A stretch of 64,000 nt of DNA from an uncultured Verrucomicrobiales bacterium (GTDB lineage: Bacteria; Verrucomicrobiota; Verrucomicrobiia; Verrucomicrobiales; Akkermansiaceae), in contig CALFBI010000010.1 of NCBI GenBank assembly GCA_937951675.1, forward strand, positions 1 to 64,000. The letters are read 5' to 3'. Shown here piece after piece: positions 8,123 through 14,335 of this stretch. Positions within the stretch are counted from its first letter, which is position 1, and the number at the start of each line of letters is the position of its first letter. The notes beneath the pieces were generated by a model. The model did not search any database. It saw nothing but the letters and a program-made list of their open reading frames with translations, and was not told the origin of the DNA. The position numbers and the translations under genes were made by a program.

Positions 8123-8450
8123 TGCACCTGTAACCTTTTTTCGTAGTAGAGCCGCACGGCACTTATATGATCCATACAACTACTGAAAAAATGAACCGAT
8201 ATTACGATCCTGAATTCAAACAACAAGCTGTTGAACTTGTTCTGACGGCAGGGAAATCCATCAAACAAATCGCCAAAGAACTTGGTTGTTCCGCCAGCTC
8301 TTTAGGTGAGTGGAAGCGAGACTACATCAAAGCTCATGAACAAGACCCGAGCCTCGATGATCATGGGGCCTATCAGGCCATGGTCAAAAAAACAAAGAGC
8401 TGCTTAAAGAAAATCAAGACCTCAAGGAACAACGTGAAATATTCAAAAAA
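8123..8450 (+). mobile_element. IS3-family remnant B (left end plus frameshifted orfA)
   Basis: It begins with the same TGCACCTGTAACC end as remnant A and is in the same orientation. OrfA reads from the ATG at 8191 through the HTH ([20 protein letters not shown]) and on to DHGAYQAMVKK. It then loses its frame in a run of seven A at 8387-8393; one more A would restore NKELLKENQDLKEQREIFKK, the leucine-zipper end of OrfA. IS homology stops in the A tract at about 8450, where the katG terminator begins. There is no orfB and no right end. It is inactive. Confidence 0.75.
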
Positions 8451-8480
8451 AGCCCGCCAGGAAAAGCTTCCGAGCGGGCT
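8444..8480 (-). terminator. Rho-independent terminator of katG
   Basis: Read on the minus strand: a 7-bp stem AGCCCGC/GCGGGCT (8474-8480 and 8451-8457) with an inner GGAA/TTCC pairing, then a run of seven T. The T run coincides with the truncated end of IS3 remnant B. Confidence 0.85.
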
Positions 8481-8504
8481 TGAAAATGAGCTCTGCGTGG
8501 GAGT

Positions 8505-11155
<2,651 letters not shown>

Positions 11156-11295: not shown

Positions 11296-12294
11296 ATGCT
11301 TCGCGAATTTCGTCATTTTACCATTGTTCTGTTTTTTTCTATTTCAAGTGTCTGGAGTGGTGCGCAAGAAGCGTCTTTAAATATTGGAGAAATGGAGCGG
11401 GTGGTGGAGCAAACAGCAGCCAAGGTTCTCCCTTCAGTTGTCTGTCTTTATTCAAGTCAAAGCGGTGCTTCTGGAAGTGGGACGATCGTCTCAAAAGATG
11501 GTTTGATCCTGACGGCCGCTCATGTGGTCATCAATGCGGAGGTGATGAAGGTGATTTTGCAAGATGGTTCCGAGAAAGAAGCTGTTTTGCTGGGCGCAAA
11601 TCGTTCGCGCGATACGGCGCTGTTGAGACTCACTTCTGATAGAATGGATTGGCCACATGTGAAATTAGCGCCTTCTCAAGAATTGGTAGTGGGGCAGTGG
11701 CTTGTAGCGGTGGGGCATGCCGGTGGGTTTGACCCCGTGAGATCTGCTCCGGTCCGTTTTGGGCGTGTCGTATCAAATAATATAGGGCATTTTTTCACGA
11801 CAGATTGCGCGCTCATTATGGGAGACTCAGGTGGCCCTATCTTTGATTTAGAAGGACGTCTTGTTGGCGTGAACTCTTCGATCGGAACGACGAGCCGAAT
11901 GAAAAATGACCATGCTGGCATTTCAGGGATCCATGATGATTGGCAACGTCTTCTTGCAGGAGACAGGTGGGGGCAGATGAGCTTAAATCCTTTTGCGAGT
12001 ATGGAGCGCCCAGTCTTAGGGGTGCGTCTGGAAGAAGATCGCCGAGGGGTGGTTTATGTGAAGGAAGTCGAGCCTGGAAGTCCTGCTTCTAAAGCTGGTT
12101 TACGCCCCTATGATATTCTGGTGCAAGTCGATGACATTCCGATCCGAAGAATCGTAGATCTTCAAAAATCTTTAATACTTAAAAAGTTGGGAGAAAGTGT
12201 GACGGTTTCTTATTTCCGAGGAGAGAGGGTAAAAAAAGTGATCGTAAAGCTGGAAGCTTTTCAAAACGTATTTCCAAAAATCAAAGAGAGATGA
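11296..12294 (+). CDS. Periplasmic trypsin-like serine protease with PDZ domain (HtrA/Do family)
   Basis: 332 aa. The signal peptide covers about the first 23 residues (FTIVLFFSISSVWSGA). The chymotrypsin-like fold has an intact triad: His in ILTAAHVV, Asp in SRDTALLRL and Ser in IMGDSGGPIF. One PDZ domain follows (VLGVRLEEDRRGVVYVKEVE, then SPASKAGLRPYDILVQVD). It would degrade misfolded envelope proteins or act in regulated proteolysis. Its ATGA overlap with the next gene, a dead homologue, suggests the two products work together. Confidence 0.92.
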   Translation: MLREFRHFTIVLFFSISSVWSGAQEASLNIGEMERVVEQTAAKVLPSVVCLYSSQSGASGSGTIVSKDGLILTAAHVVINAEVMKVILQDGSEKEAVLLGANRSRDTALLRLTSDRMDWPHVKLAPSQELVVGQWLVAVGHAGGFDPVRSAPVRFGRVVSNNIGHFFTTDCALIMGDSGGPIFDLEGRLVGVNSSIGTTSRMKNDHAGISGIHDDWQRLLAGDRWGQMSLNPFASMERPVLGVRLEEDRRGVVYVKEVEPGSPASKAGLRPYDILVQVDDIPIRRIVDLQKSLILKKLGESVTVSYFRGERVKKVIVKLEAFQNVFPKIKER

Positions 12295-13286
12295 AAAAAA
12301 CGATTATTTTATTATTCGTAGGGATGAGCTTTTCGATGGCGGATGAAAAAGTAAATCCCTTTTACACTCCTGATAATCAGAAAGTTCTCACGAAACAGGC
12401 GGACGACCTTTATCGTCAATTAGATCCTGTGGCAGAAAAAGTGAAGGAACAGGTGGTCCAAGTCTACGTGGGAAAACATGAGAGAAGCCTAGGGTTTGTG
12501 GTGGCGCCAGGTTTGGTGGTGACAAAATTAAGCCGTATTGATCAACGGTATGGGATCACGTGTCGATCTAATGACGGAAAATGGCATTTAGCCTCTTTTT
12601 CGCAAAGCTCGAAAGAAGATGATTTGTTGGTTCTGCACACCCCTACCCTAAAAGCAGCGCCTGTGGTTTCAGCAGAAGCAGGAGTCCTTCGAAGGGGGAG
12701 TTTTTTAGTCTTATCACATTATCAAGGAATCGCGGCCAAATTTGGAGTGTTGAGCGTGCCGGAGCGTAGCTTGAGGATCCATGATCAGGGTTTTTTAGGA
12801 GTGCTTGTGAGGGATGTTTCTCAAAAAGCGATCGTTGCTAAAATCGAGGCAGGATCTGCAGCAGATCAAGCAGGGCTAGTAGTGGGCGATCAGATTAAAA
12901 AAGTGGGGACTCACGCGATTCGGTTTGCTCAAGAAGTTAGCCATCAATTGAAGCAGTTTAAAAGAGGGGACGAGATTGAGATTGAGGTGCTTCGAGAGGA
13001 TCAGAAAAAGGTGCTCATCGCGGTTTTGAATGGAAGACCCCAATCCCAAGCTTCGATTCCAGTTCATCATCTGGAGGAAATTGAAAAAATGAGTGGTGAG
13101 AGAAGCTTTCGCCGCAGTGGTTTCCCTTCCGTGATTCAGACCGATATGTATTTGGAACCTCAAGAGGTAGGGGCACCTGTATTGAACCTTCAAGGAGACG
13201 TTGTTGGGATGGCTCTGGCAAGAGCAGGAAGAATCAAAACATATGTTCTTCCTATGAGCAGGATTTCCAAATTGTTGAAAAAGTAG
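12291..13286 (+). CDS. Catalytically dead HtrA-like protein with internal PDZ
   Basis: 331 aa with a short signal peptide (MKKTIILLFVGMSFSMA). The N-lobe resembles HtrA (LGFVVAPGLVVTKLSRID, then SKEDDLLVLHT), but the His of the triad is absent (TKLSRI in place of TAAHV). The PDZ (GFLGVLVRDVSQKAIVAKIE) comes next. Only after it comes a C-lobe-like strand pair, QTDMYLEPQEVGAPVLNLQG, in which the Gly-Asn-Ser-Gly-Gly loop has become Glu-Val-Gly-Ala. His and Ser are therefore lost and the PDZ sits inside the protease domain instead of after it. The likely role is regulatory or scaffolding partner of the active protease encoded just upstream. Confidence 0.8.
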   Translation: MKKTIILLFVGMSFSMADEKVNPFYTPDNQKVLTKQADDLYRQLDPVAEKVKEQVVQVYVGKHERSLGFVVAPGLVVTKLSRIDQRYGITCRSNDGKWHLASFSQSSKEDDLLVLHTPTLKAAPVVSAEAGVLRRGSFLVLSHYQGIAAKFGVLSVPERSLRIHDQGFLGVLVRDVSQKAIVAKIEAGSAADQAGLVVGDQIKKVGTHAIRFAQEVSHQLKQFKRGDEIEIEVLREDQKKVLIAVLNGRPQSQASIPVHHLEEIEKMSGERSFRRSGFPSVIQTDMYLEPQEVGAPVLNLQGDVVGMALARAGRIKTYVLPMSRISKLLKK

Positions 13287-13337
13287 TTTATATCAAAAAA
13301 ATTGAAAATGGGAGCTAGCTCTTCTGTAAATTGTGGT

Positions 13338-13886
13338 ATGAGTAAGGACATGAAAGATTCCATCGACGAACAAGAGGCTAAAGATCTCGAAGAAACTCGT
13401 GACAAATTTATCGTGCAGTGGGGAGTGATTGGGACGAATTGGGGAATTAGTCGCACCATGGCTCAGATTCATGCTCTGTTGATGACGAGTCGAGGGTCAA
13501 TGAGCACCGATCAGGTGATGGAATCTTTAGAGGTAAGCCGAGGGAATGCTCATACGAATTTAAAAGAACTTGTAGGATGGGGGCTCGTGAGCATTGTGAC
13601 TAAAAAAGGAGACCGCAAAGAATATTTTGAAGCGGAGAAAGATGTGTGGGAAATCTGCCGCCGAGTCGTTATTGAGCGAAAGCGACGAGAAATTGACCCC
13701 GCTTTACAAACTTTACGAGAATGTTATTTGGAAACAGAAGATCTCGAAAGTGAAGACGCACAAGCCTTTAATAAGCAAATGCAGTCGCTTGCAGATTTCG
13801 CAGAGTTCGCCGGGAAAATGGGTGACCGGGTTTCTTGCCTGCCTCATGGTAAAGCCATGAAAATTGCGGCGAAATTATTTATTTAA
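13338..13886 (+). CDS. GbsR/MarR-like transcriptional regulator
   Basis: About 182 aa from the ATG at 13338; starts at 13308 or 13302 would add up to 12 residues, and none has a clear ribosome binding site. The pattern FIVQWGVIGTNWGISRTMAQ, then STDQVMESLEVSRGNAHTNL and the wing VSIVTKKGDRKEYFEAEKD, is the GbsR winged-helix layout. The target genes are unknown. It precedes a DCC-family gene by 11 bp and probably forms an operon with it. Confidence 0.8.
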   Translation: MSKDMKDSIDEQEAKDLEETRDKFIVQWGVIGTNWGISRTMAQIHALLMTSRGSMSTDQVMESLEVSRGNAHTNLKELVGWGLVSIVTKKGDRKEYFEAEKDVWEICRRVVIERKRREIDPALQTLRECYLETEDLESEDAQAFNKQMQSLADFAEFAGKMGDRVSCLPHGKAMKIAAKLFI

Positions 13887-13897
13887 AAAGAGATTCG

Positions 13898-14335
13898 ATG
13901 AGAGAAGAACAAGCTCTCGTAGCCCTCTATGATGCTGAATGCGGCGTTTGTGCTCATTTTAAAGAGTGGTATCTTAGCCAGTCTTTCACGAGTAAAGTGC
14001 TTTTCGAAAACTACCGTAGTTCTTCCTTTCTAGAAGAAATCCCAGCCCTTTTAAAAGAGAGCGCGGACCGAGAAATCTTAGTCCGAGATCACGATGGAGA
14101 ATGGAGGCAAGGCGGGGAAGCTTGGCTTGTTTTAATCAAAGAGCTTCCGAAGTATTCGAAATGGGTTCCGCTGCTCGCTCGCCCTCAGATGTTGCCTTTG
14201 GTAAAGCAAGTGTGTGTGCTTGTTTCACAGAACAGGCTCACTCTTTCTAAATTACTACGCTTGAAATCTGATCAAGAAAAAATAGATGAGTTAAAGCAGT
14301 ATTCCATTGACTGCGATGATGATTGTTCCTTTTGA
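13898..14335 (+). CDS. DCC-family (DUF393) thiol protein
   Basis: 145 aa. The defining YDAECGVC motif near residue 11 gives the D-x-x-C-x-x-C redox pair, followed by a thioredoxin-like alpha/beta pattern and the W-L-V-L-I segment typical of DUF393. Members are predicted thiol-disulfide oxidoreductases, but their substrates are mostly unknown. The C-terminus is unusually acidic with another Cys (DCDDDCSF). It lies 11 bp after the GbsR-like gene. Confidence 0.8.
   Translation: MREEQALVALYDAECGVCAHFKEWYLSQSFTSKVLFENYRSSSFLEEIPALLKESADREILVRDHDGEWRQGGEAWLVLIKELPKYSKWVPLLARPQMLPLVKQVCVLVSQNRLTLSKLLRLKSDQEKIDELKQYSIDCDDDCSF

Follow-up and report, generated by a model that had tools for sequence, protein, structure and literature searches.

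What might a protease homologue without an active site contribute when its gene lies directly behind that of an active member of the same family? Known HtrA proteases usually carry their PDZ domain after the protease domain, and in DegS, DegP, and HtrA1 every subunit is catalytic, while activation by the PDZ via loop L3 has usually been studied in homo-trimers in which each subunit both senses and cuts. The question is raised by two genes within a 64,000-nucleotide stretch of DNA (referred to as the window) from an uncultured Verrucomicrobiales bacterium of the Akkermansiaceae (contig CALFBI010000010.1), which encode an HtrA-type serine protease, P0001, and a catalytically dead HtrA homologue, P0002. 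An earlier proposal made from the sequence alone, here called the original prediction, had described them as a fixed enzyme-pseudoenzyme pair and the second protein as a domain-rearranged HtrA, perhaps part of a hetero-oligomer or a substrate adaptor. Both open reading frames (ORFs) were found where they had been predicted, joined by a 4-bp ATGA overlap (Table 1) that suggests translational coupling, and the hydrophobic N-terminal stretches of both proteins read by eye as putative signal peptides, that of P0001 being of the Sec type.

A dead HtrA homologue with its PDZ domain in loop L3

Alignment places Ser81 of P0002 at the position of the catalytic His and Val293 at that of the catalytic Ser, with Asp111 retained, which bears out the predicted loss of two triad residues. 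In the dead family as a whole, of which 110 rows were aligned (109 distinct members plus the P0002 of the window), the His position is occupied by Ser in 107 rows, Glu in two, Ala in one, and His in none, the Ser position is occupied by Cys (44), Ala (26), Met (13), Val (11), Thr (7), Ile (5), Ser (2), or another residue or a gap (2), and the Asp is retained in 107. It should be noted that the residue counts from this alignment and from a corresponding one of 111 active rows include the window's own proteins twice, while identical rows were dropped. The two rows that retain the Ser (L110 and L122) nevertheless lack the His, and a cysteine protease reading of the 44 relatives with a Cys nucleophile was ruled out, as none has a His. 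With no catalytic triad in its sequence, P0002 cannot work as a serine protease of the ordinary kind. Several other positions are well kept across the dead family, namely Lys79 (108 of 110 rows), Arg159 (109), Gln283 (105), Arg311 (103), and Arg314 (108), as are Ser81 and Asp111 (107 each), which indicates that P0002 is under selection. Lys79 and Ser81 make up a nearly fixed K-x-S motif at the site of the lost His, and an R-A-G-R-like turn occupies residues 311-314, where loop L2 would lie.

The domain matches of P0002 are arranged in an unusual order. Pfam recognizes a clear PDZ_2 match at residues 167-240 and a Trypsin_2 match that barely exceeds its cut-off (29.9 vs 27.6 bits), the best stretch of which, residues 269-307, is C-terminal to the PDZ; no Pfam family other than PDZ and trypsin ones exceeds its cut-off, and the chain ends at the last protease helix. 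The AlphaFold model (mean pLDDT 86.1, pTM 0.75, from an alignment of 38 sequences) predicts a complete HtrA fold wrapped around the PDZ, i.e. the full chymotrypsin-like double barrel closes around it, with C-lobe strands at residues 138-142 and 148-159 ahead of the PDZ and at 281-284, 296-298, 304-311, and 317-321, plus a final helix, behind it. In VIA-align, residues 38-331 of the model superimpose on the isolated protease domain of E. coli DegQ (3sti_B, 184 residues) with Z 23.3 over 169 aligned residues at rmsd 2.2, and the 50 HtrA entries among the matches listed score Z of about 23 to 25. From this fit, the late Q-T-D...G-A-P-V-L segment supplies what the C-lobe would otherwise lack, in agreement with the original prediction. 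The predicted rearrangement itself stood in one respect and not in another: the PDZ does precede the late Q-T-D piece, but it lies inside the C-lobe after two of its strands rather than between the two lobes. Foldseek gave low whole-chain TM scores for the same model, probably because of the inserted PDZ, while VIA-align was informative on the same set; among the matches listed by the two programs there was no solved HtrA with a PDZ in L3, though such a structure may still exist.

In an alignment with DegP, DegQ, and DegS, the PDZ of P0002 falls between the ALGRSGL and NFIQTD segments of DegP, which is loop L3; the corresponding loop of HtrA1 has been delimited as Ser298-Leu307, with Arg302 equivalent to DegP Arg187 (PMC5666011). 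In MEROPS family S1C, at least one PDZ is expected after the protease domain; the PDZ of P0002, at residues 166-250, is instead within the C-lobe. All 23 members of one alignment (A4) match both PDZ_2 and Trypsin_2 and all 141 distinct dead members carry a PDZ within the dead segment; thus, the placement is not a matter of chance. The glycine of the peptide-binding loop is present in the inserted PDZ of 109 of 110 rows, mostly as F/Y-L-G-V/I. One dead member (L133, 3218-4684, minus strand) apparently has two tandem PDZ domains at the L3 position. Many of the longer P0002 relatives (L033-L076) also carry a C-terminal tail of ~50 residues, lacking in the P0002 of the window, that ends in a charged helix (M-R-R-x-M-E-E-M-R-R-L-M-E) and is possibly a coiled coil for assembly.

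The first gene of the pair encodes an HtrA protease of ordinary design. P0001 matches Trypsin_2 at residues 60-192 with 97.4 bits (cut-off 27.6) and PDZ_2 at 239-319, likewise over the cut-off, and its triad of His76, Asp106, and Ser178 is intact, as it is in all 111 aligned partner rows. Its AlphaFold model (pLDDT 81.5) has the usual order of protease and then PDZ and superimposes on the protease and PDZ of DegQ (3pv3_B) with Z 26.9, 280 aligned residues, and rmsd 3.9. P0001 thus has the intact triad and C-terminal PDZ that define the HtrA/Deg proteases (MEROPS S1C). Against the NCBIfam model for the DegP/Do subfamily (TIGR02037), it scores 152.1 bits, below the cut-off of 416.2, so by that model it is an HtrA-type protease and not a DegP/Do member.

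Table 1. Features of the P0001/P0002 gene pair, in window coordinates
Feature	Position	Strand	Basis
P0001, active HtrA-type serine protease with C-terminal PDZ, 332 aa	11296..12294	+	ORF list, domain search, AlphaFold model
P0001 Trypsin_2 protease domain	11473..11871	+	Pfam match, alignment
P0001 catalytic codons	His76 11521-11523; Asp106 11611-11613; Ser178 11827-11829	+	alignment
P0001 C-terminal PDZ, aa 239-319	12010..12252	+	PDZ_2 match
ATGA overlap of the P0001 and P0002 frames, 4 bp	12291..12294	+	sequence
P0002, catalytically dead HtrA (pseudoprotease), PDZ inserted in loop L3, 331 aa	12291..13286	+	ORF, Pfam, AlphaFold model
P0002 N-lobe and first two C-lobe strands, aa 55-159	12453..12767	+	model, alignment
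P0002 codons	Ser81 (catalytic His place) 12531-12533; Asp111 (kept) 12621-12623; Arg159 (DegP Arg187 position) 12765-12767	+	alignment
P0002 PDZ inserted at L3, aa 166-250, peptide-binding loop F-L-G-V kept	12786..13040	+	Pfam, model, alignment
P0002 remaining C-lobe, aa 278-330: I-Q-T-D strand, last strands and helix	13122..13280	+	model, alignment
P0002 Val293 (catalytic Ser place)	13167-13169	+	alignment

The pair is old and seldom broken

A search of 195 genomes from the window's family detected P0002 in 164 (E ≤ 1e-8) and P0001 likewise in 164 (E ≤ 1e-30), and among those listed as negative, the same 20 genomes are negative for both. Judged by position, at least 136 of the 142 listed P0002 places are immediately preceded, on the same strand, by a P0001 place. 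Of the six without one, three are in fact pairs (G159, G056, and G162; loci L018, L029, and L024) and a fourth is labelled as a pair in the tree described below (G099, L095); the others are a broken gene at a contig end (G076, L020) and G128. In a further set of 48 loci, the active gene is directly upstream in 43, and the remaining five comprise a broken locus (L050), three that are cut at the 5' side (L077-L079), and a Tahibacter locus (L080) whose weak match to P0002 is confined to residues 162-236, i.e. to the PDZ. Strong matches extend further: searches limited to these found 50 of 285 genomes at the class level (E ≤ 1e-20; 34 from the window's family, 7 from another family of the order, and 9 from other families of the class) and 36 of 387 at the phylum level, two of which are outside the class.

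The dead members were then counted individually, using those above 100 bits from L001, L033-L076, and the available loci of L081-L194 (without L086), with L002-L032 and L077-L080 unused and identical rows dropped. Of the resulting 141 distinct members, 119 adjoin an active HtrA encoded as a separate gene, 19 are fused to one, and three stand alone, the last being the broken L050 at a contig end, a protein of L115 that lies beside a fusion, and L144, which is alone within the stretch fetched. Since all loci were found via resemblance to P0002 or its alignments, distant stand-alone forms could have escaped this count. Among the 119 separate pairs, 61 overlap, 56 are separated by 0-30 bases, and only two are farther apart, as computed from the longest-ORF start. 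We can conclude that the pair is old and seldom broken, and the conservation that the original prediction had called for is evident among the relatives.

Fusion has joined the two genes in both orders, with 18 of the 19 fusions placing the active domain first and a single one, from another class of the phylum (L185), placing the dead domain first. Three fusions (L117, L118, and L126) come from single-contig genomes (G081, G130, and G146), which makes an assembly error unlikely. The fraction of 19 in 141 is not an unbiased fusion rate, because most of the fused loci were fetched for their long frames. When fusion is mapped onto a tree of 92 dead domains, nine changes are needed, at least five of which are forced by the starred branches, although the tree was made by a quick method, has some long branches, and does not distinguish gain from loss of fusion. 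With L133, L149, and the three stand-alone members set aside, 136 members remained, and dropping 44 near-copies among them left the 92. Locus L115 (2169-5980, plus strand) encodes a dead-type protein of 557 aa followed directly on the same strand by a live/dead fusion of 710 aa, amounting to three HtrA-like domains. Together with the wide conservation, fusion in both orders supports the notion of a fixed enzyme-pseudoenzyme pair.

The genome of the window also contains a second pair of the P0001/P0002 type (L150), consisting of an active frame of 367 residues and a dead protein of 337 aa that belongs to the other main clade of the tree. We compared matched and mismatched partners in 25 genomes in which each clade is represented by a single, clearly assigned pair. 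The distances of matched partners co-vary beyond the other pair, with partial correlations of 0.83 (jackknife 0.70-0.87) and 0.78 (0.64-0.80), vs 0.25 and 0.30 for mismatched partners.

Relation to known active and inactive HtrA combinations

Active and inactive HtrA proteins have been encountered together before. In Magnetospirillum, proteolysis requires both MamE and MamO, with the active site of MamE being needed and that of MamO being dispensable; MamO, which also binds metal, needs its TauE transporter domain in order to activate (PMC4794232). P0001 and P0002 resemble this system in that an active and a dead HtrA are kept together, whereas P0002 has no C-terminal TauE domain and, unlike MamO as described in PMC4794232, carries a PDZ inside its protease domain and is encoded beside its partner or, in some relatives, in one frame with it. 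Deg7 of plants and algae unites an active and an inactive HtrA domain in one chain, ordered PD-PDZ-PDZ-PDia-PDZ-PDZ in the Chlamydomonas protein, the inactive domain reportedly being involved in trimerisation (PMC3473262). In contrast, the window has two genes, with fusion in 19 of the 141 members gathered, and the dead domain of P0002 encloses a single PDZ, while the PDZ domains of Deg7 follow its protease domains. A serine pseudoprotease that activates a related protease is found in CspC/CspBA of Clostridium difficile, which also includes a pseudoprotease domain fused to an active one (PMC4619724), but these proteins are subtilisins that act in spore germination, and a PDZ is not mentioned in the available part of that account. 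PflC of the Campylobacter jejuni flagellar motor is a dead HtrA homologue that has kept the fold and serves as a scaffold in a structural lattice (PMC12222027); it differs from P0002 in its protease-PDZ-PDZ order, and no catalytic partner is described for it in the available part of its source. Lastly, P0001 has the same domain order and fold as DegS, DegP, and HtrA1, while P0002 departs from all three in having its PDZ at L3 and lacking the catalytic His and Ser.

Among the results from open-licence PMC papers (the top 10 to 12 of the larger result sets), judged by their titles and abstract openings, there was no report of a PDZ inside an HtrA protease domain, nor was an arrangement of the P0002 type reported in papers on HtrA or pseudoproteases of Verrucomicrobia or Akkermansia or on inactive HtrA paralogs. 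Thus, the combination of active and inactive HtrA is already known from MamE/MamO and plant Deg7, while the PDZ in L3 and the fusion in both orders appear to be new.

What P0002 may do for P0001

The simplest reading is that P0002 is a client-binding subunit, since it is dead, has kept its PDZ, nearly always has a live HtrA for a neighbor, and has several times become fused to one. P0001 and P0002 would then be the catalytic and non-catalytic subunits of a single envelope HtrA system, in which P0001 would perform the cutting, while P0002 would supply an HtrA fold with the PDZ built into L3 and join P0001 in a hetero-oligomer. The PDZ of P0002 would bind the C-termini of damaged envelope proteins, and P0002 would present these clients to the adjacent active subunit and possibly switch P0001 on. 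We are confident that the two proteins are functionally coupled and consider direct contact between them probable. With somewhat less assurance, we favor a recruiting or regulatory role for P0002, and our preferred description of it, held about as firmly, is that of a PDZ subunit without catalysis of its own that brings clients to P0001 and perhaps switches it on. The envelope location, the physical contact, and the client binding are all features that we infer for the pair, and a role in a hetero-oligomer or as a substrate adaptor, as originally predicted, is plausible.

Recruitment alone is the safest of the roles that P0002 might have, and signaling through its L3 to the LD loop of its partner is the most interesting. 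In DegS, DegP, and HtrA1, a signal is relayed from the PDZ to L3 and onward to the LD loop of the next monomer (PMC5666011, PMC3640471), and Arg187, Gln200, and Thr176 of DegP are the three residues named as inter-monomer allosteric ones (PMC5666011). Arg159 and Gln283 of P0002 align with DegP Arg187 and Gln200, and across the 110 rows of the dead family these two positions hold Arg in 109 and Gln in 105. The Gln200-aligned position has been lost in most of the active partners (Gln in just 22 of 111 rows). It is tempting to speculate that a signal could pass from the PDZ via the L3 of P0002 to the LD loop of P0001, although we regard such a relay in trans only as a tentative possibility. The same tentativeness applies to the more general proposal that catalysis and sensing have been split over two subunits, such that a dead sensor with its PDZ in L3 would switch a live protease in trans, the genes having been repeatedly joined or split and some live subunits having dropped their own PDZ. 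Of the 138 active partners, 18 have no detected PDZ, including proteins of 254 residues in L127 and L128. In one other case (L115), the PDZ of the active partner was missed by model coverage and found by the PDZ model.

A number of observations weigh against this reading or restrict it. The PDZ-less active partners are not independent cases, as 13 of the 18 come from a single genus group (g3), and the other 120 of 138 active partners have a PDZ of their own. Arg is present at the DegP Arg187-aligned position of L3 in 109 of 111 active rows, and in a smaller alignment in P0001 itself, which rules out a clean split with an active protein devoid of the L3 transmitter. Because most active partners keep both their own PDZ and this Arg, the division of labor is not absolute and P0001 may signal alone. 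On the side of P0002, the position of DegP Thr176 is Ala148 and is variable across the dead family. The co-variation of matched partners could owe something to joint transfer or inheritance of adjacent genes. In the window and L033-L076, neither a substrate gene nor a stress gene is conserved beside the pair, nor is any gene generally conserved around it. Finally, physical interaction between MamE and MamO, the nearest bacterial precedent, was not detected by its authors (PMC4794232).

Other explanations account for part of the same evidence. P0002 could mainly be an oligomerisation or cage-building subunit that sets the size or symmetry of the assembly and passes on no signal, much as the inactive domain of Deg7 is reported to be involved in trimerisation (PMC3473262); the predicted retention of its whole HtrA fold and the fusions in both orders are compatible with such a simple scaffold. 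However, the PDZ is present in all 141 members and the loop glycine in 109 of 110 rows, which a mere scaffold would not require, and we consider this explanation unlikely. Alternatively, P0002 could be an inhibitor that locks P0001 until a ligand binds the PDZ. The PDZ of DegS is an inhibitory lock that acts through L3 (PMC5666011), and overlapping frames would suit an enzyme that is made together with its own brake. The present data do not separate a brake from an activator, but a lock explains the PDZ-less active partners less readily, as these would need the dead partner for client binding too, and its probability seems to us fairly low.

A still smaller chance is assigned to an independent non-catalytic job, such as that of a chaperone or a structural scaffold, with P0002 being merely co-expressed with P0001. 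Although PflC offers a precedent for a dead HtrA serving as a scaffold (PMC12222027), an unconnected job is at odds with the repeated fusion in both orders, the co-presence of the two genes, and the stronger co-variation of P0002 with its matched active partner. Lastly, the P0002 of the window has a long end branch in the tree (1.59), and its genus is represented by no other genome among those compared, as might befit a gene in decay or an assembly or frame artefact. Its frame is intact, however, its homologues are conserved across families, and Lys79, Ser81, Asp111, Arg159, and Arg314 are well kept, which leaves decay or artefact with hardly any credibility.

Neighboring genes and other HtrA proteins of the genome

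Upstream of the pair and divergent from it are frames that resemble, by eye, those of a KatG-type catalase-peroxidase and of a Fur-type regulator (window 8505-11155, minus strand). KatG-like and Fur-like neighbors recur in only two of 44 other loci (L053 and L055), and a functional hint from the neighborhood was rejected, as nothing besides the pair itself is generally conserved. A protein cluster exemplified by a class A penicillin-binding protein with Transgly and Transpeptidase domains (e.g. L033 2472-4769, minus strand) occurs in the flanks of 27 of 45 sources (the window and L033-L076) and is absent from those of the window. Downstream of the pair (13302-14335, plus strand) are a MarR/GbsR-like regulator, for which the ORF list gives TTG as the start, and a DCC1-like thiol-disulfide oxidoreductase; relatives of neither gene were found in the flanks of L033-L076. 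A short frame at 8167-8589 (plus strand) begins in a way that reads by eye as an IS3-type transposase OrfA and is possibly a remnant.

The window's genome also contains a second, different kind of live/dead HtrA pair (L211 on G000:C3, 649-2166 and 2203-3696, both on the minus strand), in which a Deg9/Deg2-like active protease (497 aa) is followed by a dead relative (505 aa) with the ordinary protease-PDZ-PDZ order. Here, the catalytic His has been replaced with Asp and the Asp with Asn. Among 21 aligned rows of this second dead family (its own protein counted twice), none has His at the His position, all 21 have Asn at the Asp position, and 14 still have the Ser. Relatives of this dead member are found in 59 of 60 genomes of the family, with the live partner adjoining in all 20 best-match loci, while in at least five genomes of genus group g14 (G013, G025, G035, G044, and G052) the live and dead hits are located apart. 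The genome has other HtrA-like genes as well, including a 500-residue frame on C2 that is its best DegP/Do match, which indicates that the live/dead pairs supplement rather than replace ordinary HtrA. A 281-aa protein on G000:C4 (L212 1375-2220, minus strand) has, to the eye, the look of a heavily degenerate HtrA, of which Pfam recognizes just the C-terminal PDZ.

Live/dead HtrA pairing may thus be a general habit of the window's bacterial family. If our reading of P0002 is true, having the cutter and its PDZ-in-L3 partner as separate proteins would make sensing and cutting separately mutable, and the pair would show how a pseudoenzyme arises when a regulatory domain is relocated to an allosteric loop.

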